From a virus: 47,647 nucleotides of DNA. The notes under the pieces are model-generated. The model made no database searches, was not told the DNA's origin, and saw only the letters and a list, made by a program, of their open reading frames with translations. Within the stretch, counting starts at the first letter, position 1; each line of letters begins with the position of its first letter. The position numbers and the translations under genes were made by a program. Positions 484 to 39,175 of this stretch are shown one piece after another. Location of the stretch: the IMG/VR virus record IMGVR_UViG_3300046642_000522, positions 1 through 47,647 of that record; one strand, 5' to 3'.

Positions 484-569
484 ACTGGTACGTGTGGAAG
501 AATCAACAGAACAATGGCCCATGCCAACAAACCCGCCGTTACTATCCAGAGCGCTTCGTTAAGACTCAT
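480..569 (-). CDS. 29-residue single-span membrane protein
   Basis: The ATG at 569 has a perfect GAGGAG site 5 bases upstream and overlaps the previous stop as ATGA; its own stop overlaps the next start as ATGA. After a short N-terminus (MSLNEALW) the rest is one hydrophobic segment ending in LPHVPV. The double coupling and good ribosome site argue for a real gene despite its size. Function unknown; a small membrane effector is one possibility, not shown by the sequence. Confidence 0.6.
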   Translation of the reverse strand: MSLNEALWIVTAGLLAWAIVLLILPHVPV

Positions 570-916
570 TTCGTCTCCTCCGCGCCGAGCGCGGCCAGTG
601 CGTCAGCTACATAGCCGTTCTTTCGCGTTGCTAGGTCGGATGACTGCTGCGCTGCCCGTAGTATGTCCACCGCCGCATCGCGCTGCTGCTTCCATGCAAG
701 TTGCGCAACTTCGCGCTCATTCAGAGCAATTTCCTCGTAGGACATGGCAACCCACGTCTTGCCACCATCCAAACTCTTACGCGGCCGGAGATATTCAAGT
801 TCCTCAACCCGCGCCACGAGGGCCTGAACGAGTTGCGCCACCTTGAAGTCCGATGGGAAACGAAGTACGTAATCCTTTGCTATCTCAACGGCGTTTGCAG
901 GCGTGATCTCTAACAT
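566..916 (-). CDS. Small hypothetical protein, paralogue of 118..483
   Basis: 116 residues from ATG 916 with GGAG 6 bases upstream; a TTG at 928 is the alternative. It overlaps the end of the transglycosylase-like gene. It has the same block order as 118..483 (ITPANA, ALVARVEELE, KQQRDAAVDILR, ALAALGAEETK). Its middle carries the sequence SLDGGKTWVAMSYEEIALNE, absent from the paralogue. Predicted mostly helical. Function unknown. Confidence 0.75.
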   Translation of the reverse strand: MLEITPANAVEIAKDYVLRFPSDFKVAQLVQALVARVEELEYLRPRKSLDGGKTWVAMSYEEIALNEREVAQLAWKQQRDAAVDILRAAQQSSDLATRKNGYVADALAALGAEETK

Positions 917-1371
917 GGCGGACTCCAATGAGACTTATATCCGGCCTGCCAAGCCTGCACCATTTGGTCAATTTGTTGCTGACCGTCCAAGGATGTAACG
1001 GGTATGCCTGCTCGTCCCGCAGGAGTGACATCGTAGACGCCGCCATATGGGATAAATTGCGGAGCGCCGTACGCCCCTGAGCTCGGGTTAACCAGGTGCG
1101 GATCGAACGTCCCGCCCGTCTCGCGAGAGACAACCTGGGTGATGCAGGGTGCAAATGCGCCTGCCTTGGTATTGATGGCTCCGATTACCGCATCTGGAGT
1201 TCCTGAATTGCAAGCGACCGTGCAGGCGTCTGCGGACGTGACCCAACTGTCATCCGGCCACCCAAGACGCTCAACCAGTGCGCCATGAAGCGCGGCCAGG
1301 AAGATGAGGATGGCTATTAGTGTTCCGACAAAGATTAGGAACTCCGAGACGAACGTGAGTGCGTTTCTCAT
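910..1371 (-). CDS. Membrane-anchored lytic transglycosylase-like protein
   Basis: 153 residues from ATG 1371. An N-terminal transmembrane segment (about residues 9-30) is followed by a small domain with the pattern SRETGGTFDPHLVNPSSGAY then GAPQF, resembling the catalytic Glu plus NPxSGAxGxxQF signature of SLT-type transglycosylases and resuscitation-factor-like folds. If so it cleaves peptidoglycan outside the membrane. The domain is short and ends SHWSPPC. It sits in the early block, away from the endolysin at 11112..12302, so a role in entry, exclusion or spread is as possible as lysis. Family call from motif only. Confidence 0.5.
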   Translation of the reverse strand: MRNALTFVSEFLIFVGTLIAILIFLAALHGALVERLGWPDDSWVTSADACTVACNSGTPDAVIGAINTKAGAFAPCITQVVSRETGGTFDPHLVNPSSGAYGAPQFIPYGGVYDVTPAGRAGIPVTSLDGQQQIDQMVQAWQAGYKSHWSPPC

Positions 1372-11111: not shown

Positions 11112-12302
11112 TCAAGAAGGCGTGTTCTGCTCAGGCTTGCCCCAGTTGTCGATGAGCCCGTAGACGATTGGCGCGATGCCGGTCAGGTAGATGACCGTCG
11201 GCTGGAACAGCGGCTGCCACTGCGCGGGCACGTTGGCAGCGCGGAGGTCACCCATAAGAACCTGCAGGCCGGCGACCGCGGCGGCTGCGGCAACGCCTCG
11301 AGAGACACCCACAAGCCAGGGCGGTACGCCGTTCGTTCCCTTGAACAGGGAGCCAATGGTCACCTTTGCTGAAGCGGTGGTCTGCACCGGCACGGCTGCG
11401 ACCGGAGGAGGTGGCGGTTGCGGCTGCGGCGTGCCGTCCGGTGGCCAGTCGGCTGTCGATGCGGTCGCGATCGCGTTCGCTGCCTCAACAAGACCCTGGG
11501 CCGCGGCGCCAAGGGCCATGAATCGCTGGACGGTCGCCTCGTTGAGACGCTGGAGCTCTTCCTCCGTGGCGTACTGGACGTCGCTCGGTGGCGGTTGTTG
11601 CGTCATAGCACCGTGTACCTTATCGCTATCGAATTTGCTCTTGTCCAGGAAGATGCCGCAGTCGGCGGTATTCCCCGTGTATTGATGGCCGATGATGCTC
11701 CCAGGCCTGCCATCGGCGGTCGGAACAGACAGGTCGGGCGGCGTTCCCCATCCCGCAATCCATTGCTGAACGTCGGCAGGTATTGGCGCTCCACCTGTAA
11801 TGGCATCCCATGCTGCCTTGTTCGTGTACAGGCCGGGAACCCAGCCTGCATCCCTGGTCGCCTGCCAGGCGTCGTAGAACCATTGCGCGGACTGCTCATT
11901 CGTGAGCCCTGAGAAGCTCTGGATGTCCTCCGCGTCCAGGTAGAGGATCGGCACGTCGATGTACGGGCCGAAGTTCTGGATGAAGGCTGTGACTTGCGAC
12001 ACCGGGTCGTAGAACCCATAGCACCACAGGTAACCGGACAGCAGCGTCTCCCGTGCGCCGAGCTGCACGAACTGCTCAATGGCGAGCGCAATGAGGTCGG
12101 ACGACTCCAGGCTGCCGCGCAGGATGAAGTAGTCGAACGACTGTACCAGACAGTCAATCTCCCCAGCGGTGAACGTCCTGGGATAGCCGTATGAATGAAA
12201 CGTCGGCTGGGCAAAATGCAGGTAGCCGTCAGGCCTTACGACCGGCACCGCAAACGGCCCAGCGAAATTGGAAAGATCACATGAGGCTAAGAGAACCGTC
12301 AT
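11112..12302 (-). CDS. GH25-type endolysin with a hydrophobic, holin-like C-terminus
   Basis: 396 residues from ATG 12302, overlapping the HNH stop as ATGA. Residues 1-230 fit a GH25 muramidase barrel: CDLSNF start, YLWCYGFYD, ILYLDAED (Asp123/Glu125 as catalytic pair), GLYTNKAAW, QWIAGWG and GHQYTGN. A Pro-rich linker (about 295-310) follows, then two hydrophobic segments near 330-352 and 366-384 and a short polar tail. Cleaves glycan strands at lysis. Membrane segments at the end of an endolysin are unusual; they might anchor it or act as a holin, which is otherwise not obvious. Confidence 0.78.
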   Translation of the reverse strand: MTVLLASCDLSNFAGPFAVPVVRPDGYLHFAQPTFHSYGYPRTFTAGEIDCLVQSFDYFILRGSLESSDLIALAIEQFVQLGARETLLSGYLWCYGFYDPVSQVTAFIQNFGPYIDVPILYLDAEDIQSFSGLTNEQSAQWFYDAWQATRDAGWVPGLYTNKAAWDAITGGAPIPADVQQWIAGWGTPPDLSVPTADGRPGSIIGHQYTGNTADCGIFLDKSKFDSDKVHGAMTQQPPPSDVQYATEEELQRLNEATVQRFMALGAAAQGLVEAANAIATASTADWPPDGTPQPQPPPPPVAAVPVQTTASAKVTIGSLFKGTNGVPPWLVGVSRGVAAAAAVAGLQVLMGDLRAANVPAQWQPLFQPTVIYLTGIAPIVYGLIDNWGKPEQNTPS

Positions 12303-12835
12303 AGCGATGCGTCCTTCCAAATCTTTCCTTGGATGACTTGGCTGATGAGCGCTGAAGTCACTCCGTATTCGGTCGCTAAACCTCTGGTATTCGGACCTGT
12401 AAATCTACCGAAGATATCACGTCCGGGTTTTGGAAGATCCTGAACACGGCGGCGAATCTCGCGGACCTTAGTCCAAGTGAGCTTTGCCCTACCGTGGTCC
12501 TCGCCATGGTGAACCTTTGCTGGAAGATTGCCGCGCCCTTTACGCAGGCAGTCCCTGATATTTTCGGATCGTGTACCGGCGAATAGATGAGATGGCCGTA
12601 CACAGTTACGTACATCGCAGCGATGGCAGACCTCGAAACCGTTAGGGATCATTCCAATGAAATACTCATAACTCCAGCGATGAACTCCTCGCCCTCTGAA
12701 CGTCCCGTATCCGCTGCCGTTTAGTGCTCCATTCCAAAGCCAGCAACACTCTAGATCAGGGACATGTTGAACGGTTGGACCGTTGCGGTTCACGTTGGCC
12801 CAGAAACTCTTAGCGGCAGCGTCGAGCAGGTTCAC
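12299..12835 (-). CDS. HNH homing-type endonuclease
   Basis: 178 residues; ATG 12835 overlaps the upstream stop as ATGA. CWLWNGALNGSGYGTFRGRG, then VHRWSYEYFIG, EVCHRCDVRNCVRPSHLFAG and TRSENIRDCLRKG is the HNH_3/NUMOD-linked pattern of free-standing phage homing nucleases, with Cys pairs for structural zinc. The C-terminal part has a HTH-like stretch (RGLATEYGVTSALISQVIQG). It is probably a selfish gene inserted between the EXORDIUM-like gene and the endolysin, though the tight overlaps show it is well integrated. Confidence 0.9.
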   Translation of the reverse strand: MNLLDAAAKSFWANVNRNGPTVQHVPDLECCWLWNGALNGSGYGTFRGRGVHRWSYEYFIGMIPNGFEVCHRCDVRNCVRPSHLFAGTRSENIRDCLRKGRGNLPAKVHHGEDHGRAKLTWTKVREIRRRVQDLPKPGRDIFGRFTGPNTRGLATEYGVTSALISQVIQGKIWKDASL

Positions 12836-14136
12836 AGATTGGTCGGCGGCGGCGGCGGAGCCACGGAGAGCTCATCGGCAACCGGAGGGCTCACGACGTT
12901 TGGATAGTAGCGGTGAAGCTGCGCAAGTACGACCGGCGCTTCGGCCGTTCGGGCATCCTCCGTTGCCTGGTGCCCCCACTTGCCGACATTGAAGAGCCAG
13001 TCCCAGAAGGCGCTCGTGCTGTGCGTCGGCGGCGGCTGAGGCTGCTGCGACTGCACCTGGACCGAGAGTGACGCGCTGACACTGTGCCCATCGGGCGTCT
13101 CCGCGCTACAGGTTACGACCGCGGAGCCCGCTTGGGGCCAGGTCACCTGGATGCCGGGACCATTGCCACCTCCGGTTGGAGTCCAGGAATAGGTGGTTCC
13201 AGCGGTAGGTGGCTGGAGTGTCGCGACGTAGTTGACGGCAGTGCCAGCCACCGGACTCTGCGGACCCTGGATAGCGAGCGTGTACAACTGCTGCGGCGGC
13301 GGCTGAGGCTGCTGCTGCTGATACTTGATGACGTTCAGACTGTTGCCGATGCCGTTGAGCTGATAGCCCTGCACGGTCCAGGGACCGTAGGCACCAAAGA
13401 CCCACGCCCACTCGTCGGCGTTCTCCATGCCGGTCTGTTCGTTGTACCAGCCGTTCCCAGGGATTGCATCGGTGCAGGCCTCGGCTACCTCATGTGCCAG
13501 CACGGCGCAGAACGCGGCGAAGGCATCGCCAGCATTGCAGCCCTGGCAGTCGGACGCCGGCTGGACGCTGTAATAGACCCGCGATCCCGCATAGGTGAAA
13601 GAGTCGTGATAGCCGCAGTAGGCGCTACAGGAGGCGCTTCCGCCCTGCGTCGATGACACACCCTCCGGCAGCAGCAGCGCATAGAGCGTGTTGGCGTCCG
13701 GTGGCGGGACGGTATGTGCCGCGATGAGACCAGTGAGCGCCGACTGGAGCTGCGCGTCGGTGACGGTGCCCGTTGCGGTGGGGCCTTTGAACGACCCGAG
13801 GAATCGGCCCTGGCCGGAGCCATACGGTCCCAGAGGCGCAAGATAGCCCGCGGTCATCAGGTCGCCGGCAAAGGCCTCTATCTTGGCGGTGTCGCTCCAC
13901 CATGGACCCAGATAGACCAGGGCGAGCTTTGGGGTGGTAATGGTCGAGCCGCCGTGGTTGGTGAGCGGATATCCCAGTTTTGGCGTGGACGGGTCGGCGC
14001 CCTCGTTGGCCATCCGGTCTCGTTCGACCTGAAGCAGATGCTCCTCGCGGGTCGGGACGTGCTGCCAGACCTCGGGATGATTTGAGATGACCGCCTTCTG
14101 TCGAGCTGCATAGGCATCGAAGTTCGGGGAAACCAT
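12832..14136 (-). CDS. EXORDIUM/PHI-1-like protein with HEVAE motif and PKD/Ig-like domain
   Basis: 434 residues from ATG 14136 with GAGGAG 5 bases upstream. Residues about 65-270 resemble EXORDIUM/phosphate-induced proteins: KLALVYLGPWW, NTLYALLLPEGV, then SCSAYCGYHD and a paired Cys DCQGC, then AVLAHEVAEACTD (HEVAE at about 215-219) and WYNEQTGMENADEWAW. A PKD or Ig-like domain (about 285-355) and a Trp-rich tail follow. No signal peptide. Clear homologue of 17060..17866. The HExxE could be a metal site, so a peptidase is possible but unproven; virion or exported location unknown. Confidence 0.55.
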   Translation of the reverse strand: MVSPNFDAYAARQKAVISNHPEVWQHVPTREEHLLQVERDRMANEGADPSTPKLGYPLTNHGGSTITTPKLALVYLGPWWSDTAKIEAFAGDLMTAGYLAPLGPYGSGQGRFLGSFKGPTATGTVTDAQLQSALTGLIAAHTVPPPDANTLYALLLPEGVSSTQGGSASCSAYCGYHDSFTYAGSRVYYSVQPASDCQGCNAGDAFAAFCAVLAHEVAEACTDAIPGNGWYNEQTGMENADEWAWVFGAYGPWTVQGYQLNGIGNSLNVIKYQQQQPQPPPQQLYTLAIQGPQSPVAGTAVNYVATLQPPTAGTTYSWTPTGGGNGPGIQVTWPQAGSAVVTCSAETPDGHSVSASLSVQVQSQQPQPPPTHSTSAFWDWLFNVGKWGHQATEDARTAEAPVVLAQLHRYYPNVVSPPVADELSVAPPPPPTNL

Positions 14137-14154
14137 ACAAACTCCTCTGAAATA

Positions 14155-14189
14155 AAGATGGCTGAGAACCAAAAGCTCTCAGCCATCTT
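14155..14189 (-). terminator. Intrinsic terminator
   Basis: Perfect 13-bp arms (AAGATGGCTGAGA and complement) with a 9-base loop; the minus-strand RNA continues UUUAUUU. It follows the gene at 14213..14491 and precedes the ribosome site of the EXORDIUM-like gene. Confidence 0.8.
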
Positions 14190-14212
14190 CGCTCATTCCT
14201 CGCTGGTCTGCC

Positions 14213-14491
14213 TTACGGCGTCGGTGGCGATGCCGGAGGCGGGCCGAGGGTCGACTGTAGGAGCGCTATCCCAGCGTTTGCCTGGTCGAGTAGCGCTTTG
14301 TCGGTGATCTGTCCTGAGTCAATCGCGGCCTGTACCGCTGCGACTGCATCCATGAGTGGCTGAGAGCTTGGCAGCGCGGCAATGACGTTCGTCACGACGA
14401 CGTCACTGACGGCACCAGGCTCCGCAGCCTGTGCAGCTGCGACGGCCGCGACGGCCGTATTCAGCGCGGCGATTTGGTCCTGAATGTTCAT
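14213..14491 (-). CDS. Small Ala-rich helical protein
   Basis: 92 residues from ATG 14491 with AGGAG upstream. Ala/Val-rich helical sequence (IAALNTAVAAVAAAQAAEPG) ending in a Pro tail PPPASPPTP. The frame stays open to a GTG at 14590, which would add a hydrophobic N-terminal segment (TTIVFRGLAWLLGQAGYTVL); that start lacks a ribosome site, but the hydrophobic extension is worth noting. Function unknown. Confidence 0.6.
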   Translation of the reverse strand: MNIQDQIAALNTAVAAVAAAQAAEPGAVSDVVVTNVIAALPSSQPLMDAVAAVQAAIDSGQITDKALLDQANAGIALLQSTLGPPPASPPTP

Positions 14492-14591
14492 GGCTTCTCC
14501 TGGTGTAAGAACCGTGTAGCCTGCCTGGCCAAGTAGCCACGCCAAGCCTCGAAAGACGATGGTCGTTAAGAACCCCGGCGCGGCCTCCACG

Positions 14592-15185
14592 TTAGGGGCA
14601 CTTCACCGTTGTGGACGGTACGCAGTCGTGGTCGTGATGATGGCTGGGCGGCAGGCCCTGGCCACAGGAGCCCGGTGCGGTGCAGGCCCATGGGAATGCG
14701 TTGTTTCGACATCCAAAGGCGAGGCAGCCGAACCCTGCGTTGTAGTTCTGCCCACAACCGTTGTTATATCCGTAGGCGAAGCCGGCACCGTAGGGATTGC
14801 CGAGCCCGTAGCCGAACGGATTGACGCCTGCATACCCGTATGCGTTGTTGTTTGCGCACGGGTCTGCGACGACGACGACCGTCTGCGTCGGCGGTGTGGC
14901 ATACGTTACCGGCTGGCTGTAGGTCACCGGAGCGCTGTACACGGGGGCAGCTACTGCTGCCACAGGAGTCGGACACACGGGAACCCAACTTACTGCGCCG
15001 GTTCCGGCGGCGCGGAACTCGACGTCACCGCTCACGAAACACCAGTATTCACCGCTACTGTTGCTGTAGAAGGTGAACGGTCCAGTCCCGCTGTAGGTCT
15101 GGGCGGAGGCCGGCGTCGATGCTCGAGCTCCGAGGAATCCGAATGCGAGGGCAGCGACCATGAGTGGAATCAGTATCTTCTTCAC
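14592..15185 (-). CDS. Secreted Gly/Tyr/Asn-rich protein
   Basis: 197 residues from GTG 15185 with AAGGAG 5 bases upstream. A clear signal peptide (KKILIPLMVAALAFGFLGA then STPASA) would be cut before QTYSGTG. The mature part starts with a small strand-rich region with Cys, passes through a VTYSQPVTYATPP-type stretch, then a Gly/Tyr/Asn-rich segment (NPFGYGLGNPYGAGFAYGY) with several Cys, and ends with a HHHDHDC cluster. Secreted or surface location is likely; function unknown. Confidence 0.7.
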   Translation of the reverse strand: MKKILIPLMVAALAFGFLGARASTPASAQTYSGTGPFTFYSNSSGEYWCFVSGDVEFRAAGTGAVSWVPVCPTPVAAVAAPVYSAPVTYSQPVTYATPPTQTVVVVADPCANNNAYGYAGVNPFGYGLGNPYGAGFAYGYNNGCGQNYNAGFGCLAFGCRNNAFPWACTAPGSCGQGLPPSHHHDHDCVPSTTVKCP

Positions 15186-15238
15186 GATTTCTCCTTGAAT
15201 CTCTCTAGCCGATAGACGTGCGCCATCTGGGCATTCAC
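15182..15238 (-). CDS. Possible 18-residue peptide coupled to the secreted protein
   Basis: GTG 15238 has AAGGAGG 8 bases upstream and reads NAQMAHVYRLERFKEKS after the start, ending in a GTGA overlap with the secreted-protein start. The overlap and strong site suggest translation; size makes it uncertain. Confidence 0.3.
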   Translation of the reverse strand: MNAQMAHVYRLERFKEKS

Positions 15239-15280
15239 ATCTTGCGCCTCCTTCCAACTAAGTCGGGTGAATGGTAGCGA

Positions 15281-15580
15281 TCAGGTCAGTCGTGAGGCAA
15301 GCACACGAAGTTGGTCAGCGAGCTTCGTCGCGTTGATGGCGGCGGCCATAATCCTCGAGCGGTCGGCCGAGGTGGCGTGCGCGGAGGCGACCTGTGCAAT
15401 GTGCTGGCCGAGCGCGACATTCAGGTCGGCCCATGCCTGCTCTGCAGCCAGCGAAAGGCGGTCTGGTTCCGACTCGGACTCGGGCTCGGGCTCGGGCGCA
15501 ACTGGCGCTTCTGGTTCAGGCTCAACCATCGGTGGCTCGGCCTGGTCGTTTACAGGAGTCTCTTCGGCTTCGTTTACCAT
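15281..15580 (-). CDS. Acidic Pro/Glu-rich small protein
   Basis: 99 residues from ATG 15580 with AAGGAGG 5 bases upstream. The first 45 residues are an acidic Pro/Glu repeat (PPMVEPEPEAPVAPEPEPES); the rest is a helix (LSLAAEQAWADLNVALGQHI onward), possibly oligomerising. A copy of the palindrome (15597..15613) lies 16 bases upstream of the start, suggesting specific control. Function unknown. Confidence 0.65.
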   Translation of the reverse strand: MVNEAEETPVNDQAEPPMVEPEPEAPVAPEPEPESESEPDRLSLAAEQAWADLNVALGQHIAQVASAHATSADRSRIMAAAINATKLADQLRVLASRLT

Positions 15581-15596
15581 TTGCCCCTCCTTGAGC

Positions 15597-15613
15597 CGTC
15601 CCAACTTGGGACG
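15597..15613. promoter_or_regulatory. Palindrome copy 2 upstream of 15281..15580
   Basis: CGTCCCAACTTGGGACG, perfect around one central base, ends 16 bases before the ATG at 15580. A TATACT box (15629..15624 on the minus strand) lies just upstream, so the palindrome would overlap the start of a transcript; a good -35 box is missing. Confidence 0.6.
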
Positions 15614-15636
15614 AGCCGCTAGCAGTATAGAGCACC

Positions 15637-15891
15637 TTAATCTGCTGCTGGGGTCGGGCCCTGGGAGCCACCGTTTCTTGCGCTTACCAGAGCTCGGAGG
15701 AGATTCAGATTCTCGCGCTCAAGCGTGTCGCGTGCCGCCTCACAGTCTCGTAGTTGCTGTATCAGACTCTGAAGCCTTGCATCCGCCTTCAGCTGAGCCT
15801 GGTAGGCCGCACCGCCTTTATAGGCGAAGACTCCAAGGACGAATGTCGCAAGTCCGATGACGCTTGCCAGGGCCGGCGCCCACTGCACCAA
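15637..15891 (-). CDS. Small membrane protein with coiled-coil tail
   Basis: 84 residues. TTG 15891 or GTG 15888; GGAG lies 8 bases before the TTG. One N-terminal transmembrane segment (ASVIGLATFVLGVFAYKGGA) then a helical, charged tail (LQSLIQQLRDCEAARDTLER). The shape resembles spanin (Rz-like) or holin-partner proteins near lysis genes, but no motif proves this. Confidence 0.6.
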   Translation of the reverse strand: MVQWAPALASVIGLATFVLGVFAYKGGAAYQAQLKADARLQSLIQQLRDCEAARDTLERENLNLLRALVSARNGGSQGPTPAAD

Positions 15892-16368
15892 TCACGTTGC
15901 TCCATATTGAGTATTCGCATCGTGCGACAGGCGCCATTTTGTTCGCAATGCGAATATCGACGGCTCTAACACCGCAACTGTGTACAGGATAGCGATCAGC
16001 AATGTTTGCATCTGGTCGAGGAAGATGAACTGCCAGCTCCGGACGACTCCATCGCCGAAATGCCCAACGACGACTGCCTGCATGACGGATATCGCTGAGA
16101 GTAAAAGAACGATTTGTTGCGGTATCAGACATGCGAGCCGCAGGAGTACATGGGACGACGGGATAATTGGCGTTCCACCGAGCGCTATGAGTCCAACGGA
16201 AATGAGGACAACCGCCTGCATTCTGTAGTTCGTGAGCAGTTGGGCAATGACCGTCGCAGCTGTGAAGTGAATGGACTCTCCGTAGGTGAGTAGGAGCAGT
16301 CCCCAAACCAGGTGATAGGTGGTCGCGTAGATGATCAGGAGTTGGTTGTATCTGATAAATCCTCTCAC
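15892..16368 (-). CDS. Four-span membrane protein (tandem pair, second)
   Basis: 158 residues from GTG 16368, overlapping the previous stop as GTGA. Four hydrophobic segments (about 10-30, 48-66, 75-95, 110-135) and a basic C-terminus. Same overall layout as 16365..16766, though sequence similarity is low. Candidates include holin-like or exclusion proteins; no family recognised. Confidence 0.65.
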   Translation of the reverse strand: MRGFIRYNQLLIIYATTYHLVWGLLLLTYGESIHFTAATVIAQLLTNYRMQAVVLISVGLIALGGTPIIPSSHVLLRLACLIPQQIVLLLSAISVMQAVVVGHFGDGVVRSWQFIFLDQMQTLLIAILYTVAVLEPSIFALRTKWRLSHDANTQYGAT

Positions 16369-16766
16369 CCCTGTTCGACTCCAAGCCGCTGCGTGCTAGC
16401 CAGCAAACAGGCTAAAGCGATGGCGAACGATGCGACGGGAGACGGAGTTATGAGGCCGCGCAATCCTGCGGTCGAAATCTGGCTCTGCAGCAGACCCTGA
16501 AACACCCAGATCGTCGAGCCGAGAATAAGCATCTCCCATCGGAGCTTGGGAATGTCGATGATGCTGCAGGCAACTATCGCCATAACGACGAGAATGTCGC
16601 CGAGCGCCCAGAACCAGCCTGGAGCGATGACCAGCAGTCTGCGGTAGATGAGCCCTCGATCGAGGGTTGCGGTGCCAGGAACAAAGAGCAAGGCATTCGC
16701 GACCGCCCCACAAATGGTGATGATCTCCAGTGGGTAGGGCCGGCTGGGAGCAAAGCGAGAACGCAT
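16365..16766 (-). CDS. Four-span membrane protein (tandem pair, first)
   Basis: 133 residues from ATG 16766. Hydrophobic segments at about 13-30, 50-70, 78-95 and 105-125 separated by short loops (DRGLIYRRLL between the first two). It is translationally coupled to the next membrane gene, so the two may form one complex. Function unknown. Confidence 0.65.
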   Translation of the reverse strand: MRSRFAPSRPYPLEIITICGAVANALLFVPGTATLDRGLIYRRLLVIAPGWFWALGDILVVMAIVACSIIDIPKLRWEMLILGSTIWVFQGLLQSQISTAGLRGLITPSPVASFAIALACLLASTQRLGVEQG

Positions 16767-16771
16767 CCGAG

Positions 16772-17044
16772 CTACTGCTGCTCAGACTTTCGGATGGACA
16801 ACTGAAAGACGGCGAGCTCCTCTCGGACTGCCATGCGAATCATGTGGACGAGCTCGTCGGCATCCAGATAGGCAGCGCGGTCGGCCCGGGCGATACCCTG
16901 GCCGTTCGGCCCGACGGCGACATCGGCAAGCTCGAAGGTTCCTGCGGAGTCGAGGGTGCGGACGAATGCCGTCAGGTTGACGTTCCCCCTTGGCTTGGCT
17001 CCGAGTAGTCGTGCGCGTGCGCCTAGATTGTCGTTGTCGGGCAT
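16772..17044 (-). CDS. Small hypothetical protein
   Basis: 90 residues from ATG 17044 with GGAAGGA upstream. Contains a strand-rich middle (VNLTAFVRTLDSAGTFELAD) and a helical C-terminus (ADELVHMIRMAVREELAVFQ). No family recognised; sits between the second EXORDIUM-like gene and the membrane pair. Confidence 0.65.
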   Translation of the reverse strand: MPDNDNLGARARLLGAKPRGNVNLTAFVRTLDSAGTFELADVAVGPNGQGIARADRAAYLDADELVHMIRMAVREELAVFQLSIRKSEQQ

Positions 17045-17059
17045 GATGGCGTCCTTCCT

Positions 17060-17866
17060 TTAGGGAACGTCGTCGGAGTCCGGCGGCTGTTCGTCTGGAT
17101 TCTTCTCATTGATGAAGTACCCCTGAATGAGCCATGGCCCCCATTTTTCCAGAATCCTATTGCAGAAGTCACCATTCTCCTCGCCGGTTGAATCGTCATA
17201 CCAGCTGTCGGACCATCCGTTTGTACAGGTCTCGGCAACCTCATGAGCGAGCGAGCTGCAGACGATGTCGAATGCTGTCGCAGGTGCCTCCGCCGGCAAA
17301 GGCGCACATCCTGGACAACTCGTGTCGACCATCACCTGAAACAGCATGTCGTGGCTATCGTTGCTGTGGTAGGCACAAAACACCTCGCAACTTCCGGGCT
17401 CTCCGTCAATGGTAGCTACGGTTCCCGGAGGCAGCATGAGCGCGTAAAGATTTGCCGCGCCATTGAGATACGAGGGTGCAGGAACCAAATTCGCGTCGAC
17501 AGCCGCGTTGACGTAGGCTATCGCATCATCTGAACTTAGGGTTGCGCCCATAGGCGTTGGTCCGTCAACAGACCCGCCGAAGCTGCTTGTGAACGAGTCG
17601 TTCGTGTATTGGGTCATTCGCTTGAAGTACGGCCCCTGCATGAGGTCGCGGGCGAAGCGCTCTAACTTTGAGCGGTCATAGTCGACGTCTCCGCCCCAAA
17701 TGAGATAGAGCGTCGGGGCAGAGACGAGTCTTCCGCCGTGATAGACAAGGTTGCCAGGTATGCCCTCTAAGTCATCGGGCGTCTTAAAGGTGTTGGCCGC
17801 GACGATTTGCCAGCTGGTAAATGGCCCAACCTGGCGGAGAAACTCCTTGTCATACATCTCGCTCAC
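17060..17866 (-). CDS. EXORDIUM/PHI-1-like protein with HEVAE motif, single domain
   Basis: 268 residues from GTG 17866, overlapping the upstream stop as GTGA. APTLYLIWGGD, ANLYALMLPPGTV, SCEVFCAYHSND, DTSCPGC, SLAHEVAETCTN (HEVAE about 208-212) and WYDDSTGEENGDFC match in order the protein at 12832..14136, but the PKD/Ig domain and tail are missing. The Y-V/A-L-x-P...C-x-x-x-C-x-x-H...C-P-G-C pattern is that of EXORDIUM-type proteins. It directly follows a tail-module gene, so it may be part of the particle. Biochemical role unknown. Confidence 0.55.
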   Translation of the reverse strand: MSEMYDKEFLRQVGPFTSWQIVAANTFKTPDDLEGIPGNLVYHGGRLVSAPTLYLIWGGDVDYDRSKLERFARDLMQGPYFKRMTQYTNDSFTSSFGGSVDGPTPMGATLSSDDAIAYVNAAVDANLVPAPSYLNGAANLYALMLPPGTVATIDGEPGSCEVFCAYHSNDSHDMLFQVMVDTSCPGCAPLPAEAPATAFDIVCSSLAHEVAETCTNGWSDSWYDDSTGEENGDFCNRILEKWGPWLIQGYFINEKNPDEQPPDSDDVP

Positions 17867-18990
17867 CGCACATCACCAGGACTGCATATCCCATCTTCCC
17901 ACGAGGAGCCGCTCCAAATCTTGACTCCAGAAGGCGATACCCAGCCATCCGGACCATAGACCATCGTCGGTTCACACACCCACTGCATTCCATTCCATAC
18001 CCAGACTCCTCCTCCTGTGCTGTATGGGCCCATGACACAGTCTCCGCCTGGAGGAAAGGCGAAAGGCACCCAGAAAGTGCCCAGCGCTCCGTTGAACCAC
18101 GTCCAGGGACCGAAGACGGGCTGCGGGCCCACTATCTGGACGCTGTGCTCGATCTGTCCAGTGACCGTGCTCGTCACGTTCATGTTTGCGTCCAGCCCGC
18201 CGGTCAGTTGTTTTCCTCCATCAATGGTCCTCGCGTCTGGCTTGTATTGAGATACACCAGGTCCGAGATCGACGGCCCACACGGTAACCCAGACAGAGTC
18301 AAAAATCGAGCCATCCATGCCTGTGTTGAAGCCACTGTTATGTAGCGTGATAGGGATGATCGTGGAATCGCCGGGTGGGGTCTGTACCCACGCAGCGAAA
18401 TAAACCTCGTTGAAGATGTATTGCAGCAACGGGTAAATCACCTGAGCCGGACCAGCTATCTCGAACATGACATGCAGCGCCTGGGGGTTGGGCAGCTCGG
18501 GAGTCGACTTGGGATACTCCCAGTACGGCGAATCGGCGTCGGCTTGGTATGCGTTCGTTGAGCCGCCAATGGTTATATAGAGGATGCTCCCAAACTCTGC
18601 TCCATTTGGCTGAATCCAACCGAAGAAATTCTTGTCTGGGGATGAGACGTGACAGACGCCAGTTGGAAACCCGGTTTCTGTGAGGAACACGGAGTATTGG
18701 CAGAGTATGTATGGGACGCCGGGTTTCCGCACTGTTGCGTCGGGGTTAACACCTGGACCGCTATAGAGCGGATCTTGCGTGGGGTTTGGCAATCCAGCAA
18801 CGACCGTGCCGTCGTTATTGAGCGGCACAAAGCCGACAAGCCCTTGGTTGAGATTGTTGTCGGTCATGTATGTCTCGTAAGAGAAGCCGGCTGGTGGCGG
18901 GTCAGTTAATGACGGCGAAAACGGCACTGGCGTGGATGGTTCTCGCGGAAACGCCTCACCACCAAGCCATCCGTACCACTCGTAAATCAT
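17863..18990 (-). CDS. Tail-module protein of unknown function
   Basis: 375 residues; ATG 18990 starts two bases after the large tail protein stop. Strand-rich and aromatic throughout, with a carbohydrate-binding feel (SILYITIGGSTNAYQADADS). The C-terminus has two related small units (GVWVWNGMQWVCEP and GVKIWSGSSWEDG), typical of repeated W-x-G-x-x-W modules on fibres. Probably part of the tail tip or fibre; family not recognised. Confidence 0.65.
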   Translation of the reverse strand: MIYEWYGWLGGEAFPREPSTPVPFSPSLTDPPPAGFSYETYMTDNNLNQGLVGFVPLNNDGTVVAGLPNPTQDPLYSGPGVNPDATVRKPGVPYILCQYSVFLTETGFPTGVCHVSSPDKNFFGWIQPNGAEFGSILYITIGGSTNAYQADADSPYWEYPKSTPELPNPQALHVMFEIAGPAQVIYPLLQYIFNEVYFAAWVQTPPGDSTIIPITLHNSGFNTGMDGSIFDSVWVTVWAVDLGPGVSQYKPDARTIDGGKQLTGGLDANMNVTSTVTGQIEHSVQIVGPQPVFGPWTWFNGALGTFWVPFAFPPGGDCVMGPYSTGGGVWVWNGMQWVCEPTMVYGPDGWVSPSGVKIWSGSSWEDGICSPGDVR

Positions 18991-27324: not shown

Positions 27325-27732
27325 TTAGTGATGAATGAACGGATCGACGCATACGAAGGGAATCGTGAACTTCACCGTCGAAACGAGCGGCACGAAATCC
27401 GACTTGCCGGTGTATCTGGCCATGAAGTACCCGTCCCTGTCTGGCAATATTAGCGGCCTGGCTCCGGCACGCACGTCCAGGAGCGTCCCGAGCGCAATGG
27501 CATTAGACATGAGCGTCGCGTGGTTCGGCTCAACGATGAAGCAGTCCAGATTGATGTCCATGGGCCCGTAGGACGCCCCGTAATCCCAGGCGCCGTCCCT
27601 AGTCGGGATATCAACGATGCGGTCCTTTACAGGCGGCAGCAGTGGTACGTGGATACCGCTCAGGGCTATAGCTACGCCGAAGCTCAGCGATGGGACGCCA
27701 TTGAAGATGAAGCCGAGCCACTGGTCGGTCAT
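27325..27732 (-). CDS. Distal tail protein (Dit-like)
   Basis: 135 residues; ATG 27732 overlaps the tape measure stop as ATGA. Residues about 38-70 (VDIPTRDGAWDYGASYGPMD then INLDCFI) match the V-P-G-R-D-G-x-x-x-x-G-x-x-Y-x-x-x-x-I pattern of SPP1 gp19.1/Dit N-terminal domains, and position right after the tape measure agrees. It would form the ring joining tail tube to tip. Shorter than typical two-domain Dit, so probably only the N-terminal ring domain. Confidence 0.75.
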   Translation of the reverse strand: MTDQWLGFIFNGVPSLSFGVAIALSGIHVPLLPPVKDRIVDIPTRDGAWDYGASYGPMDINLDCFIVEPNHATLMSNAIALGTLLDVRAGARPLILPDRDGYFMARYTGKSDFVPLVSTVKFTIPFVCVDPFIHH

Positions 27733-30700
27733 AAGTGAAGTCCCTGCGGATAGCCAAGCGCCTTGATGCGCTCCTGCTGTGCCGCGGTCTGCGCTTGAGA
27801 GAGCCTGCCGACGATTTGGTCGACACGACGCTCGCTGTCCACATGCATGTTCTCGACGTTGAACATGTGACCGCCGAACATAGGACTGTCACCTCCACCG
27901 CCTCCGCCTCCGCCTGCCCCGGACCCGCCGCTCGCGGTTCCTGGCGAAGCGCTGGCACCAAATGCGGCACCGACCGCAGTGCCCATGGCGTCGGAGAGGA
28001 GGGACGAGCCGGAGGTGATGCCCATGGCAGCGCCTTGAATCAGCGGCAGGCCAATCTCCTTCATGGCACGCTTGGACGGCGAGGCAATCAGACCTTCAGC
28101 CTGTGCTGCCAGGATGGCTGAGTCCACGGCTTGCCTAGCAGCCGCTTGAATGGCAGGCATGCTCTGCACGATTCCGGTTGCAATGCCATCGCCGATGGCG
28201 TTCCCAACCGGAGTAGCCTGCTGCGTGGCGTCGGGGATGGCAGAAGCGCCACTCGCAGCGTCGTGAACGGCATTCCGAATTGCCGGTGTGCCCTGCGTAA
28301 CTCCGGCCGCTATTCCACTTGTGATGGCGTTGCCAATGGCCTGCGACTGCTGTGCTACCTCGGCAGGCTTCGGCAGTAGGTCTGGAACGAAGATTTTGTT
28401 TGGCTTGACGGCAGGACCACCGAAAGCAGACGCGCCCTGCGAGGCTGCGGCCATATCGATGACGACCTTCTTTTGGTCGTTGAGAATCTGGAGTTGGTCC
28501 TGCAACTGCTTGGTATGGAAATCATCGCCCTGGGTTTGGACCGTCTGGGTATCCTTTGCCAGGCCAAGTGCCGTAGTTGCCGCTTGGATTTTCTGGTTGG
28601 CGGCCAGGAGCTCTGGGGCAGACCCATCCAGTTTGATCTTCGCCTCATCCTGCGCCAGTTTGTTCTTGGCGTCCTCAGTCTGGAGGCCGGCGTTGGCGAG
28701 GCTATTCTGGTCCTGCGCCAACTGGTTTCGGCTCTGCTCAGCGCTGATCGCAGCGTTGATTCTCGAGAGCTCCTTATCCAGTGCATCAGTCTTCTGGCCC
28801 TGCGCCTGAAGGGACTGCTGCTGGATTTGCAGTTGATCCCGCTGGACCTGAAGTTGCAGGAGCGCAGGGTCCGTACCGCTCGTGTGTCCCTGGGCGGCCA
28901 GGAGATCATGCGACTTTGTGATCTGGTCCTGGATGGCCGTCGCCTGCTGCTGAAGGGTCTGAAGATACTGCTCGGCCGGCTGACGGGCCTGCTCGATCTG
29001 GTCCTTGATCTCGGTCCAGTGATTCTTGCTCTCGACCAGAGGTTCGTTCTGCGCATCGAAGGACTTTTTGAGCTCGTCCGAATGGGTCTTCGCCTCGTCG
29101 ATCTGGACCGTCAGATCGTGCATCTGCGGTGTGGGTAGATTTGCCCACTCCTTCGCCTTCGCCGTCAGGTCGTCAAATTCCTTCTTGGCCGGGTCGACAA
29201 AGCCGGTCTTCAGCTCGGTGAGCATGTTCTGGTCGGCCTGGACGGCTGCGCTGTCACCGCTGGCTAGGTCGGACTGCAGCTTCTCCTGCCACTGCTCCTC
29301 AAGCTGCAGCATGTTCGCGTAACGATCTCTGGCCGATGCAAGGATGGACTGGTCACTCGCGGACAGTTGTGCGTTGACGCTGGCGTTCTTGCCGACCAAT
29401 TGGTCGTAAGCCAGATTCGCTATCTGTAGCTTGGTGTTCTGGACATCGCTCCAGGCGCTGAGTTGGCTCTTCCAGCTTGACTCGATGGCCGTATTCGCCT
29501 CGTTCGCCTTCTTGATGCTCTGGTCGTAGGATTTTTGCTCCGCATCCCGCTTCTCGCCGAGACCGGCGATTTTGGCATCCAACTGCTTGCGGTCTTCGGC
29601 AGACATGGTCTCGGTGCTCTGCCGTTGGAGGCCGTTGATCTGTGCCTGGTAGCCCTGGATTGCCTGAAGCTGTTGTGATGCCGACTGGATGGACGAATCC
29701 CGAATGTTTTGCCAGTCTTCGACTGTGTGGTCCTTATACGTTCCACTGGCCTTTGCCATCTCGTCATAATCCTTCGAGATGGTGGCTGCCGAGGCATCGG
29801 TGGTTTTGGCCAGTGAGGTACTCGCCTTGGCCGCGGCGTCGCTATTCGAGGCGTTCTTATCGTGAGTCGCCTGCTCTTCTTTCCCCTCGTTGACAATGGA
29901 ATCGACTTGTCCGGCAGCGTTGCTCTCGATCGCTTTGGCGGCTCTCCCATAAGCGTCCGCCTCGAGCTGCTTATCAGCGATTCTGGCCATTGCCTCTTCA
30001 TGGACAAGTTCGGTGTGCTTCTTCTCCTCAGCGTCGGACATGACGTAGTCGCCGGTCTGTGGAGTGCCCGCACCACCTGCGGGCGGGGGCGGATTGGTGA
30101 TACTTCCCGGTACAGGAATGAGATTGAGCGACTTAATTTGCGCCGCAATGTCCTTCATCCGGCTGATTGCTTCAGCCTGAACCTGGTCGAAGTACGGGTC
30201 CATGGAGCGCTTGACGGCATCGGACGGGCCCATAAGCCAGGCGGCGAAATCGCCGATGACGCCTTTTCCTGTGCCAGGCGACCAGTGCTGCGAGTTAGTC
30301 GCCTGGTCGTAATAGGGCTGCATTGAACGCTTGACACCGCCAGGATCTCCGAACAGTGAGTCGATCAGTTTGGGCAGAAGCGCTCCGCCCGACCGCTCGG
30401 TATTCATAAAGCTCTCTGCATCGGTCTTGACCTGATCCAGAGCGCCTTTTACCCATTCGGATATCTGCGAGTCGTCCTCGTGGCCGGGTAGGGCTCCGCC
30501 AGTAAGGAGAGCCGTGAGGATGTTCCCGCCTTCCGTCTTCTGGACGAAGTTGACGGTGAACGTGTAAGCCTTACCAGCAAGAGTGGCGAGATCGCCGAGC
30601 TTTGTAATGAGATCCGTGAGGGGCGGAAGCAGATCAGTCCCAATCGAAACTCCGAGGACGGCGAGTTTCTGTTTGGCAATGTCCAGCTGGCGCGATGTGT

Positions 30701-31619
30701 TGCCGAGCGCCTCCTGGAACGCATCCTGGACCGGCGTCGCTCCTCCGGAGAAGGCATCCTGATTCGCCTTCTCGATTGACAGGAGATCAGCAAGGCCGTC
30801 GTGCAGGATGACAGTCGCGGCACGGCCGGAGATCATCCGGTTGCCGAAGATGCGGTAGACTTCGTCGCCCTGGACGCCGGCTGCATTCAAGTCCTGGAAG
30901 ATGCCGACAAGGCCTCTGCTGGCTAGACCCGCAGAGGTGAAGTCGCTCACGAGATTGACGCCCGTCGTATTGGATAGCCTGGCGAGCTCCGTCTCGGCCG
31001 CCTTGGTCGGTGCGACGATCTGCTGCATCATCCGGATGATTTCAGTGCCGGACAGGGCGTAGTTCTGCCCATTCCGCGTCAGAGTCGCATAGACGGCTGA
31101 AACATCTGCCAGACTGACGCCCAAAGCAGCGGCCTGCGCCACAGCCTGCTGGCTGCCGGCGACGAACTGGCCAAAGCTCACGTTGGCGTTCTTGCTCGCG
31201 GTCAGCAGTGTGTTCATGAAGGCGGAGGCGTCATCTCCAGATGCACCCATGACGTGCAGTGCCTGCGCCAGCTCCTGGGTCGTTTCTGCGAGGTCGGAGC
31301 CGGTGCCGACGCTCGCCTGCATTGCAACCTGGACGATTTTCTGAGAATCGGCGAGGCTGAAGCCCTCGTCCGCGGCATGGCGGAATGAGGTTGCCAGAGC
31401 CTCGAATCCGACGCCGCCCTCTTGCGACATGCTCTTAATGGAGGCGTCAACCGCGCCCATATCGGACGAAGTCAGCAGGGAATTGGCGTGGAGCTGTTGG
31501 AGAATCTGCTGGTAGTTGGCCGCTGATTCAACGGCCTTGTCAAAGCCGAGCGCGACGGCACCAAGGGCGACACCTGTGGCGCCGAACGCCAACACGCTGC
31601 CAGCATTGAGGCTGGACAT
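27729..31619 (-). CDS. Tape measure protein (N-terminus probably longer)
   Basis: 1296 residues from ATG 31619. A TP901-type core (about 20-330: LLTASKNANVSFGQFVAGSQ, SGTEIIRMMQQIVAPTKAAE, GNRMISGRAATVIL) is followed by a long coiled-coil rod (about 530-1050) rich in Gln/Lys/Asp and a C-terminal domain with GIAAGVTQG/GIATGIVQS repeats and a poly-Gly run. Sets tail length and probably enters the host envelope. The frame is open upstream to 31733 and encodes ISAAELLVKVGFDG, a typical tape measure beginning, yet contains no ATG, GTG or TTG; ATT at 31709 is a candidate start. The ATG given here has no ribosome site. Confidence 0.9.
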   Translation of the reverse strand: MSSLNAGSVLAFGATGVALGAVALGFDKAVESAANYQQILQQLHANSLLTSSDMGAVDASIKSMSQEGGVGFEALATSFRHAADEGFSLADSQKIVQVAMQASVGTGSDLAETTQELAQALHVMGASGDDASAFMNTLLTASKNANVSFGQFVAGSQQAVAQAAALGVSLADVSAVYATLTRNGQNYALSGTEIIRMMQQIVAPTKAAETELARLSNTTGVNLVSDFTSAGLASRGLVGIFQDLNAAGVQGDEVYRIFGNRMISGRAATVILHDGLADLLSIEKANQDAFSGGATPVQDAFQEALGNTSRQLDIAKQKLAVLGVSIGTDLLPPLTDLITKLGDLATLAGKAYTFTVNFVQKTEGGNILTALLTGGALPGHEDDSQISEWVKGALDQVKTDAESFMNTERSGGALLPKLIDSLFGDPGGVKRSMQPYYDQATNSQHWSPGTGKGVIGDFAAWLMGPSDAVKRSMDPYFDQVQAEAISRMKDIAAQIKSLNLIPVPGSITNPPPPAGGAGTPQTGDYVMSDAEEKKHTELVHEEAMARIADKQLEADAYGRAAKAIESNAAGQVDSIVNEGKEEQATHDKNASNSDAAAKASTSLAKTTDASAATISKDYDEMAKASGTYKDHTVEDWQNIRDSSIQSASQQLQAIQGYQAQINGLQRQSTETMSAEDRKQLDAKIAGLGEKRDAEQKSYDQSIKKANEANTAIESSWKSQLSAWSDVQNTKLQIANLAYDQLVGKNASVNAQLSASDQSILASARDRYANMLQLEEQWQEKLQSDLASGDSAAVQADQNMLTELKTGFVDPAKKEFDDLTAKAKEWANLPTPQMHDLTVQIDEAKTHSDELKKSFDAQNEPLVESKNHWTEIKDQIEQARQPAEQYLQTLQQQATAIQDQITKSHDLLAAQGHTSGTDPALLQLQVQRDQLQIQQQSLQAQGQKTDALDKELSRINAAISAEQSRNQLAQDQNSLANAGLQTEDAKNKLAQDEAKIKLDGSAPELLAANQKIQAATTALGLAKDTQTVQTQGDDFHTKQLQDQLQILNDQKKVVIDMAAASQGASAFGGPAVKPNKIFVPDLLPKPAEVAQQSQAIGNAITSGIAAGVTQGTPAIRNAVHDAASGASAIPDATQQATPVGNAIGDGIATGIVQSMPAIQAAARQAVDSAILAAQAEGLIASPSKRAMKEIGLPLIQGAAMGITSGSSLLSDAMGTAVGAAFGASASPGTASGGSGAGGGGGGGGDSPMFGGHMFNVENMHVDSERRVDQIVGRLSQAQTAAQQERIKALGYPQGLHL

Positions 31620-35267: not shown

Positions 35268-36278
35268 TCAAGGGCAGGCTATGAGACTCCCCTGTGCCAG
35301 AGCTCCATTCAGGAAGTATGCCTGCCGGCAGACGTTCGGCTGAGGCGTCGGTGATGGTGTGGGCGTGGGCTGATTGCCTACGGTGACGGACACCGATCTT
35401 GAAGGAGATATCTGCCCCGTCGCTCCATCGCCAACCCACGCGGCAGCGCCATAGGTGCCAGCTGATGTGTATGTGTGAGAGAACACATGCCCCTGCTGCC
35501 AGTTCGCCGAGGTGCCGTCCCCATAGGCCACGGCGTAATACGGAACTGTCGCCTGTCCAGTGATGGTGAACGTCGCGGTCAGGCCGGTCCCGCTCAGCGA
35601 AACAGTCGGTGCCACGAGCCCGGTCGGAGATGGAGTTGGCGTCGGTGTCGGTGTTCGCGTGGGCGTCGGCTGTGGCGTCGGCGTCGACGGGTCCGCCGTC
35701 GACGCGAAGGTCATTGTGTTCATCCAGAAGTTCGGCCAGGTCGTCGTGCCGTCGTTGTAAATGCCCTCTTCGAAGGAGACTCCGACCGAGACCATGTTCG
35801 CGTCGAGCAGGTTGGCGAGGTGCGGTGGGCTATTGACGTACTGATTGAATGTCGCGGTCGGGTCACCGGACCCGTTGCCGGCGATATTCTCGTCGATGCT
35901 CTGCGTCGGGCTCCCGCAGTTCTGCGTGCGGGCCAGCGTTGCACCGTAGCTGTCATGCGCAAAGACGCCTGTGCTGGCCATTTGCAGGGAGTGGGTGTCG
36001 GCGCTGCGCTCGAGGCTGGGCGATACCGATAAGGCGGGAACGCCGTGGCTGGCACGTAGTTGGTTCGTCATATCAATGACGGCCTGCTCGTTCGCGTTCG
36101 GTGTCGAATGCGAAGAGCCGCACACGGTCGTCTCTCGAGTGCTGGCCGCTGCCGAGAGCGGTGGGCCGACAACGGATGGCGCAGCAGTCTGCCCCACATG
36201 CCCCTGCGAGAAGGCGATGTGCGGAGCCAGCACCATCACAAACGCCAACAACGCAAACAGCGGAATTAGCTTCTTCAT
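35268..36278 (-). CDS. Secreted CAP-domain protein with PKD-like domain
   Basis: 336 residues from ATG 36278, overlapping the connector stop as ATGA. Signal peptide MKKLIPLFALLAFVMVLAPH (cut after about residue 25), then a CAP domain (about 55-190): MTNQLRASHGVPALSVSPSL, FAHDSYGATL, IDENIAGNG and NSPPHLANLLDANMVSVGV give the His-Glu-Glu-His set complete. A TPTPQPTPTRTPTPTPTPSP linker is followed by a PKD-like domain (AVAYGDGTSANWQQGHVFSH, TYTSAGTYGAAAWVGDG), then a second Pro linker and a short Cys-containing end. An exported protein within the neck genes is striking; host envelope or extracellular action is inferred. Confidence 0.8.
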   Translation of the reverse strand: MKKLIPLFALLAFVMVLAPHIAFSQGHVGQTAAPSVVGPPLSAAASTRETTVCGSSHSTPNANEQAVIDMTNQLRASHGVPALSVSPSLERSADTHSLQMASTGVFAHDSYGATLARTQNCGSPTQSIDENIAGNGSGDPTATFNQYVNSPPHLANLLDANMVSVGVSFEEGIYNDGTTTWPNFWMNTMTFASTADPSTPTPQPTPTRTPTPTPTPSPTGLVAPTVSLSGTGLTATFTITGQATVPYYAVAYGDGTSANWQQGHVFSHTYTSAGTYGAAAWVGDGATGQISPSRSVSVTVGNQPTPTPSPTPQPNVCRQAYFLNGALAQGSLIACP

Positions 36279-36655
36279 TCGATAACGGACCCGAGCCATC
36301 TCTCCGTCGCTCCATAGGTCATCGGGTCTTGCCGAGCTTCAATGCGAATCGTGAGTCCTGGCAAGACCACGAGATCCTCGATATGCACGTCGATAGGCGA
36401 GCCGACCACAATAGATGGATCGATGAAGTCGATGACCCAGCGGCTATGCGCCTCAACCCTGTCGACGTATTCGCCCAGCTCAGCCGGCATACGGTACGGA
36501 CTAACGTGCGTTGGAACATCTGTGGCGTAGGTCACCGGCGCCTGAGTACGACCGCCCATATTGTCGGAAGTGCTGGATGGACGCTGAAGCGTGGCACGGT
36601 CCCTGAGAAACCTGGAGGCCCGGCGAGCCGCATGGTCCTGATGTGGAAGCGTCAT
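36275..36655 (-). CDS. Head-tail connector / head closure protein
   Basis: 126 residues; ATG 36655 overlaps the upstream stop as ATGA. FLRDRATLQRPSSTSDNMGG then TYATDVPTHVSPYRM and a C-terminal strand set (LPGLTIRIEARQDPMTYGAT) match the small beta-barrel head closure proteins (SPP1 gp16/HK97 gp7 type) found at this position. Closes the portal channel after packaging. Confidence 0.68.
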   Translation of the reverse strand: MTLPHQDHAARRASRFLRDRATLQRPSSTSDNMGGRTQAPVTYATDVPTHVSPYRMPAELGEYVDRVEAHSRWVIDFIDPSIVVGSPIDVHIEDLVVLPGLTIRIEARQDPMTYGATERWLGSVIE

Positions 36656-37948: not shown

Positions 37949-39175
37949 CTATGCGTTGACGTTGAGGGTCTTGACGGCGAACTGATCGAAGACGTCGTAG
38001 CCCTCAACCTCTGAGAGGGTGATGACCTGCGTCTGCCGCTTGATCCACTTATCGACTTCGCTGATCTCGCTGCCGATTTCGACCACACGCTCAATCGCCC
38101 ACTGGCGGTCGAACCCGATGATCTTGAGCGACGGCGCCGCAGTGGTATGGCCGACGCGAACACTATCAGCCAAGCCAGGATTGATTGGAGCAAATGAGCC
38201 GTAGGTGCTTGCCGGCAGGAATGCCAGCGGGATATTGGCGCTGCCAGCGTTCAGAAGCTCCAACTGCAGGTAGACGTCATCCTGGACGATGGCATGGGTG
38301 ATGCTGTACGGATTGACGAACTTCAGCTTGAACGCGAGCCAGGCCTTGAGGGTCAAGGTGCCCGCAGTCGCGCCAGTATCGAGCGCGGTCAAGTTGTAAT
38401 TCGTCGCGGCCGTATTGGCGTTGCCGTCACCGTTCAGCATGATGTCGAGAATGGCGGCCAGCTTATTGATCTCGGTCCGAAGGGCGATACGTGCCAGGTG
38501 GAGCGCCACGAGGTCGATTCGGCGGCGCCGCATCTCTTCGTAGGTGAGCTCAATGGCCCTGCCGTATTTCTTCAGCCTGATGGTGTGGTCACCGCCGGTC
38601 AGCTTCGCCGTCGGGAGATCGGTTCCTTCAGGAACGCGGACCAGTGTCTCCTGGTCTGCCGCGTCCGTCAGGTAGAAGGCTCGGTAGTCCTGGCCTTCAA
38701 TCGGGCTCGTGATGGCGATCACTTCGCTGATCGGGATGGCCGGCTGAAGCTGGAAGTATCGCGCCTGCGCCGCGTCGACGTAGGGGCGCATGACGGACCC
38801 TGGCGGGAACTGGTCAGACGTGTATATGGCGCGTTGACCGCCATACTTCACACGCCGAGCGACCCGTGCTGCCCATTCAGGGACCATAGCGCGAGCGTTG
38901 GGGTCTTTCTCGAAGGCTTCGTAGGGGGAAGCCCACCGGCCGCTCTCATAGTCCGGGTTCTGGATGATGCCAGCAACCCGCATCATGCGGCTGAAGGCGT
39001 CGAGCCCGTCTTCGGTCGGGTCTTCGTCCTCGAGGAAGGCCGAGAGGCTCTGGCCGGAGTTATACGCCTCGCGATACAGACGGCCGTCGTGCATTCGCTC
39101 GAACAGGTCGCCGACACTCGTGCGCATTGCATCGAGTGGCCCGGCCCGGTGCTGGTCTTCTCTTAGAGCTACCAC
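37949..39175 (-). CDS. Major capsid protein (HK97 fold)
   Basis: 408 residues. Signature stretches include DYRAFYLTDAADQETLVRVP then TAKLTGGDHTIRLKKYGRAI (spine/E-loop region), YEEMRRRRIDLVALHLARIA, and a C-terminal domain with PSLKIIGFDRQWAIERVVEI. Preceded by the prohead protease and decoration genes and of standard length. Forms the icosahedral shell; the first 100 residues may be a delta-domain scaffold removed by the protease. Confidence 0.85.
   Translation of the reverse strand: MVALREDQHRAGPLDAMRTSVGDLFERMHDGRLYREAYNSGQSLSAFLEDEDPTEDGLDAFSRMMRVAGIIQNPDYESGRWASPYEAFEKDPNARAMVPEWAARVARRVKYGGQRAIYTSDQFPPGSVMRPYVDAAQARYFQLQPAIPISEVIAITSPIEGQDYRAFYLTDAADQETLVRVPEGTDLPTAKLTGGDHTIRLKKYGRAIELTYEEMRRRRIDLVALHLARIALRTEINKLAAILDIMLNGDGNANTAATNYNLTALDTGATAGTLTLKAWLAFKLKFVNPYSITHAIVQDDVYLQLELLNAGSANIPLAFLPASTYGSFAPINPGLADSVRVGHTTAAPSLKIIGFDRQWAIERVVEIGSEISEVDKWIKRQTQVITLSEVEGYDVFDQFAVKTLNVNA

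Follow-up and report, generated by a model that had tools for sequence, protein, structure and literature searches.

The window, by which we mean the whole stretch of DNA analysed, comes from IMG/VR, where it forms one virus record 47,647 bases long. It is a genuine tailed phage, uncultured, and every one of its hallmark late genes is encoded on the minus strand (Table 1). Two of the genes, P0001 and P0002, are paralogues, judging from the alignment of their products (35% identity over 218 aligned aa, E = 3e-34, far beyond chance). The coordinates given for them in an earlier note on this DNA were right, and the strand, which it did not state, is minus. The motifs that it described as shared are all present, i.e. 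(P0001/P0002) YALLLP/YALMLP, CSAYCGYH/CEVFCAYH, CQGC/CPGC, LAHEVAEACT/LAHEVAETCT and a WY-x-x-x-TG-x-EN-x-D segment (WYNEQTGMENAD/WYDDSTGEENGD). As to the PKD/Ig-like domain and tail attributed to one of the two proteins, the tail stands; the PKD-like domain of P0001, which has Pro/Gln-rich linkers on either side, is a sub-threshold match only (E = 0.012).

The two genes sit in different surroundings. The start codon of P0002 overlaps the stop codon of the gene behind the large tail protein, which joins P0002 to the tail unit; P0001, the HNH endonuclease gene and the GH25-like endolysin gene are chained by overlapping start and stop codons. This bears out the placement among tail and lysis genes proposed earlier. 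The hairpin preceding P0001 is possibly a terminator or attenuator that sets the P0001-HNH-endolysin group apart from the upstream late genes.

Table 1. Features of the window discussed in the text (P0001 numbering for residues, unless P0002 is named)
Feature	Position	Strand	Remarks
Terminase	45181-46545	-	Hallmark gene
Portal	42274-43824	-	Hallmark gene
Major head protein	37949-39175	-	Hallmark gene
CAP/SCP and PKD protein	35268-36299	-	Between head and tail genes, inside the structural module; CAP/SCP domain PF00188, E = 1.7e-15; secreted type
Tape measure	27729-31619	-	Hallmark gene
Tail protein, 1589 aa	18993..23762	-	phrog_3475 minor tail protein, E = 5e-7; PF06605, E = 1e-4
Gene of unknown family	17863..18990	-	Between the tail protein gene and P0002; stop overlaps P0002 start (GTGA)
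P0002	17060..17866	-	268 aa, GTG start, intact frame; EXORDIUM-like domain alone
HEVAE of P0002	17231..17245	-	Residues 208-212; invariance across homologues
E230-x-x-D233 of P0002	17168..17179	-	Invariance across homologues
Two adjacent, overlapping small hydrophobic proteins	15892-16766	-	133 and 158 aa; located between P0002 and P0001; no clear family assignment; candidate holins
Strong hairpin with T-rich stretch on its 3' side	14154..14190	-	Just upstream of P0001; -28.7 kcal/mol, z = -6.1
P0001	12832..14136	-	434 aa, ATG start, intact frame; EXORDIUM-like domain (about residues 55-262) followed by a Pro/Gln-rich linker, a weak PKD domain, a second, Pro-rich linker and a tail
H177 of P0001 (C-G-Y-H)	13606..13608	-	Invariant, even where adjacent cysteines are lost
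HEVAE of P0001	13480..13494	-	Residues 215-219, in predicted helix 205-222; H215, E216 and E219 invariant
E238-x-x-D241 of P0001	13414..13425	-	Further candidate metal ligands; identical in all 33 distinct homologues
Weak PKD-like domain of P0001	13057..13257	-	Residues 294-360; PF00801, E = 0.012, 16 bits versus cut-off 23.5
HNH endonuclease gene	12299..12835	-	Between P0001 and endolysin, overlapping both (GTGA with P0001, ATGA with endolysin); C-terminal part of product weakly like Mor-type regulators
GH25-like endolysin gene	11112..12302	-	ATG at 12302; phrog_291, E = 1.1e-9; PF01183, E = 4e-4, below cut-off
Two neighbouring small paralogues	118-522 and 566-928	-	40% identity over 130 aa

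Both proteins had been assigned to an EXORDIUM/PHI-1-like type. With the Pfam profile of that family (PF04674, Phi_1; curated cut-off of 25 bits), P0002 scored 18.4 bits and P0001 gave no match; neither reaches the cut-off, and the relation holds as a distant one, through bacterial intermediates. The cut-off was passed by homologues from Myxococcota and Gemmatimonadota: L006 from Myxococcales (125.3 bits, over most of the profile), P0004, which is carried by a Gemmatirosa plasmid and was reached via a weak match in the search (40 bits). L007 passed it too (30 bits). Alignments and searches connect P0001 and P0002 to L006 and P0004 across the domain. Because these intermediates pass the cut-off, we regard the distant kinship as sound: the window proteins are almost certainly remote relatives of the PHI-1/EXORDIUM family, though not members by curated score, and are best read as part of a mostly bacterial branch on the periphery of the superfamily.

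Used alone or together as query, P0001 and P0002 found nothing in scans of viral and genome collections. The family opened after the Gemmatirosa plasmid homologue joined the query, the three-sequence alignment leading to homologues in Myxococcales, Acidobacteria, Chloroflexi and Elusimicrobia as well as in further viral contigs. None was found among 50,697 named phage records, chance matches aside, or in PHROGs; the matches of P0001 to a Stenotrophomonas phage 'lipoprotein' and to mycobacteriophage tape-measure proteins were set aside as due to chance. A profile of 19 homologues detected the family in 34 of 151 sampled genomes of Chloroflexota (the phylum of L009) and in 12 of 141 of Myxococcota (the phylum of L006), with 1 to 10 copies per carrying genome. 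In two homologues the EXORDIUM-like domain is fused to a long C-terminal part, with repeats around DYDxSGKxDHLVLYRPGTGTIWILKN in one (L018, 1-1749, plus strand) and several further segments in the other (L031, 9704-14131, plus strand). In the tree, P0001, P0002 and the homologue of the L015 phage form one clade (support 100/99); this single phage clade therefore points to a long retention of the gene in phages.

The position of the homologue was similar in three other phages. In L015, the one homologue is found 0.45 kb before a GH25 endolysin gene; in L019 the order is GH25-amidase endolysin, Holin_LLH, homologue, phosphoesterase; and in L023 Holin_LLH is followed by the homologue, downstream of the tape measure and tail genes. 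The exception is L017, where the homologue lies upstream of the terminase gene and not by lysis genes. The phosphoesterase gene of L019 (10502-13537, plus strand), which comes after the holin and EXORDIUM-like genes, codes for a 1011-aa protein with a PF04185 domain (E = 5.9e-22). No profile of a lysis protein in PHROGs, the Pfam lysis families or NCBIfam matched P0001 or P0002. The phage proteins are without signal peptides (in a simple hydropathy scan, the N-termini of P0001, P0002 and the L015 protein showed no hydrophobic stretch), whereas a secretory or lipoprotein leader precedes most of the bacterial copies. The missing signal peptide was dropped as a mark of phage copies, since the peptide is also absent from some copies whose neighbouring genes suggest a chromosomal location.

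Conservation was assessed on 33 distinct homologues (the 19 aligned sequences plus 16 rows from a later profile search, which was not a motif search, minus 2 repeats). Six polar residues, H177, H215, E216, E219, E238 and D241 in P0001 numbering, are identical in 33 out of 33, and the motif is HExxE, not HExxH, in all of them. The cysteines of the C-x3-C and C-x2-C segments are absent from several homologues. The idea of a zinc site made of these cysteines was dropped, L029 and several others being without them yet having H177 and HExxE; because they are lost in this way, the family cysteines more likely form disulfides. An HExxE helix, a downstream ExxD and a separate invariant histidine make up the pattern expected of a metal site with a general base. 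From this pattern, P0001, P0002 and their relatives probably share a metal site, and are predicted, somewhat less firmly, to be enzymes.

Structure prediction had been proposed in the earlier note as a check on its claims. Run by AlphaFold on residues 1-285 of P0001 with the 19-sequence alignment, it yielded a confident core (pLDDT 81.8, pTM 0.77, 164 residues at 90 or above; a two-sequence input, with pLDDT 36, was of no use) in which HEVAE is part of the long helix 205-222. Metzincin-type metalloproteases dominated the best fold matches: 17 of the 20 best PDB matches were metalloprotease chains, from eight proteins (ecarin, Amuc_1438, ADAMTS4, Bacteroides fragilis metalloproteinase-II, archaemetzincin, B. 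fragilis toxin 2, RVV-X and AaHIV), with E values from 0.019 to 0.1, none below 0.001, a best probability of 0.94 and TM-scores of 0.21-0.37. Since the TM-scores are low, the likeness of the modelled core to these proteases is remote and confined to the core level. Sequence searches of solved structures (PDB) with the window proteins returned chance matches only, and no viral structure model matched the P0001 model well. The zincin-like metal site that had been inferred earlier is thus supported, as a probable one, by the six invariant polar residues and by fold matches that are mostly of the metzincin type; the part that does not fit is the motif itself, HExxE instead of the classical HExxH.

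Plant EXORDIUM-type proteins are extracellular and have a secretory signal peptide, and EXORDIUM/PHI-1 proteins affect plant cell expansion. We are aware of no biochemical activity established for any member of the family. A role in growth was reported for plant EXORDIUM in a 2009 study in which only one bacterial homologue was recognised (PMC2661892). The PF04674 profile is of the plant type. Converting SHELAEAVTDP of L006 into the plant letters ASLLAGTATNP lifted its PF04674 score by 5.4 bits, and single changes at the equivalents of H215, E216 or E219 cost at most 2.3 bits; phage and bacterial members carry HExxE in place of the plant-type segment LLAGTATNP. The published plant logo has a conserved E, and a conserved C five residues later, with no D at the D241 position (PMC8481617). 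Because the plant letters raise the profile score and the logo is without the D, plant EXORDIUM most likely has no HExxE/ExxD site, a reading for which the C-terminal half of a plant EXO sequence was checked only via the PF04674 profile (235.6 bits over 128 residues). EXORDIUM is then the wrong model for the activity of the phage and bacterial proteins, since the plant branch seems to be without the site. A wider scenario, which we hold to be unlikely, is that the superfamily began as bacterial HExxE metallopeptidases, of which phages would keep the active form as tail- and lysis-stage envelope proteases, the plant EXORDIUM proteins being catalytically dead descendants on a kept scaffold.

One copy is encoded with tail genes and the other in a unit with a lysis enzyme, which suggests that phages use PHI-1/EXORDIUM-related proteins to attack the bacterial surface. 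From the observed homology, invariant residues, gene order and coupling, and from the predicted fold, we infer that P0001 and P0002 are signal-less metallohydrolases, probably proteases, that are freed with the lysis proteins or borne on the tail and act on the host envelope (probability of about 0.45). The metal would be held by the H and E residues of the HExxE helix, probably by E238 and/or D241 after a loop and perhaps by H177, with E216 as the general base; the reaction would be a zincin-type hydrolysis, probably a proteolysis, of proteins or peptides in the host envelope or surface layer. Late expression would put both proteins in the cytoplasm. P0001, as it is presumably made late and is without signal peptide, would leave the cell beside the endolysin once the holin opens the membrane; P0002, whose gene is coupled to those of the tail, may instead be carried on the tail. 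The disulfides would form outside the cell, where the metal site would then hydrolyse its envelope substrate, most likely a protein. In P0001, the PKD domain and the Pro-rich linkers may help to hold that substrate. Action on the envelope, be it at lysis or at entry, has in our estimate an even chance of being correct.

This proposal is favoured by the invariance of the six residues while the cysteines vary, by the confident model core and its metalloprotease matches, by the HExxE precedent of CLCA1 (PMC6851300), by the start/stop overlaps and the joining of P0002 to the tail unit, by the adjacency of homologues to holin and/or GH25 endolysin genes in L015, L019 and L023, and by the lack of signal peptides in the phage copies. 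Against it stand the low TM-scores (0.25-0.37 for the best matches) with no fold match below an E value of 0.001, the L017 gene, located by the terminase and away from lysis genes, and the non-classical motif, zincins with substitutions in it being often inactive. Such substituted motifs are described as common, with little known of what the inactive forms do (PMC3650047).

The coupling of P0002 to the gene that follows the one for the large tail protein, and the location of the L023 gene in a tail-lysis stretch, would also agree with both proteins being particle components, i.e. tail-borne, metal-dependent envelope enzymes that clear a protein or polymer layer for the tail at entry and have no part in lysis. 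We consider this rather unlikely: P0001 is in one unit with the endolysin, and the homologues of L019 and L023 come directly behind the holin. A cargo gene, meaning a bacterial extracellular enzyme carried for the benefit of the host or of the infected community (e.g. for feeding or growth on surfaces) and playing no part in the phage's own cycle, is improbable; the family's spread and copy number in Chloroflexota and Myxococcota and the presence of a secreted-type CAP and PKD protein in the same phage would suit it, but the phage copies have no secretion signal, are repeatedly linked to lysis genes and, in the case of P0001, P0002 and L015, form a single clade long kept in phages. Equally improbable is a non-enzymatic protein of secreted type, for binding or structure, whose metal (e.g. 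calcium) merely holds the fold, as in the ligand-poor plant EXORDIUM, for although the plant relatives seem to function in growth without the site (PMC2661892) and the enzyme fold matches are remote, E216 is invariant in 33 of 33 distinct sequences and a structural metal would need no general base.

If P0001 and P0002 are indeed envelope-acting metallohydrolases, they point to an undescribed lysis- or tail-linked enzyme of phages, absent from the named phage records and PHROGs searched. The conserved metal-type site of the bacterial and phage branch would provide a first testable activity for the EXORDIUM/PHI-1 family, together with the mutations for the test, and the phage copies a way to learn what the family does. 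The open-access papers searched contained no description of PHI-1/EXORDIUM proteins in phages, and none of EXORDIUM as a metalloprotease.

To conclude, the window proteins can be set beside several known systems. With metzincin/zincin metalloproteases (ADAMTS4, ecarin, archaemetzincin, B. fragilis metalloproteinase-II, Amuc_1438), P0001 has in common an HE-containing helix in a confident core, but the metzincins have HExxHxxGxxH/D where the window proteins have HExxE. CLCA1, for which a conserved HEXXE motif and zinc-dependent metalloprotease activity have been described (PMC6851300), resembles them by this motif; Pfam scans of the window proteins gave no CLCA family at E values up to 1, and CLCA1-type proteins differ in being animal, secreted and multidomain. 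Like holins and GH25/amidase endolysins, the phage homologues have no signal peptide and, in four phages, their genes lie within or beside the lysis cassette, but P0001 and P0002 match no described lysis-protein family. Plant EXORDIUM proteins appear to be without HExxE and ExxD, whereas P0001 and P0002 have both. From PF04674 at large the window proteins are set apart by a score below the cut-off, the absence of a signal peptide, their coding by a phage and, for one of them, a PKD-like domain. They are nevertheless homologous to it over most of the domain via the bacterial intermediates, and share with its bacterial members the HxG start, the C-x3-C-x2-H and C-x2-C segments and the E and C near the end.
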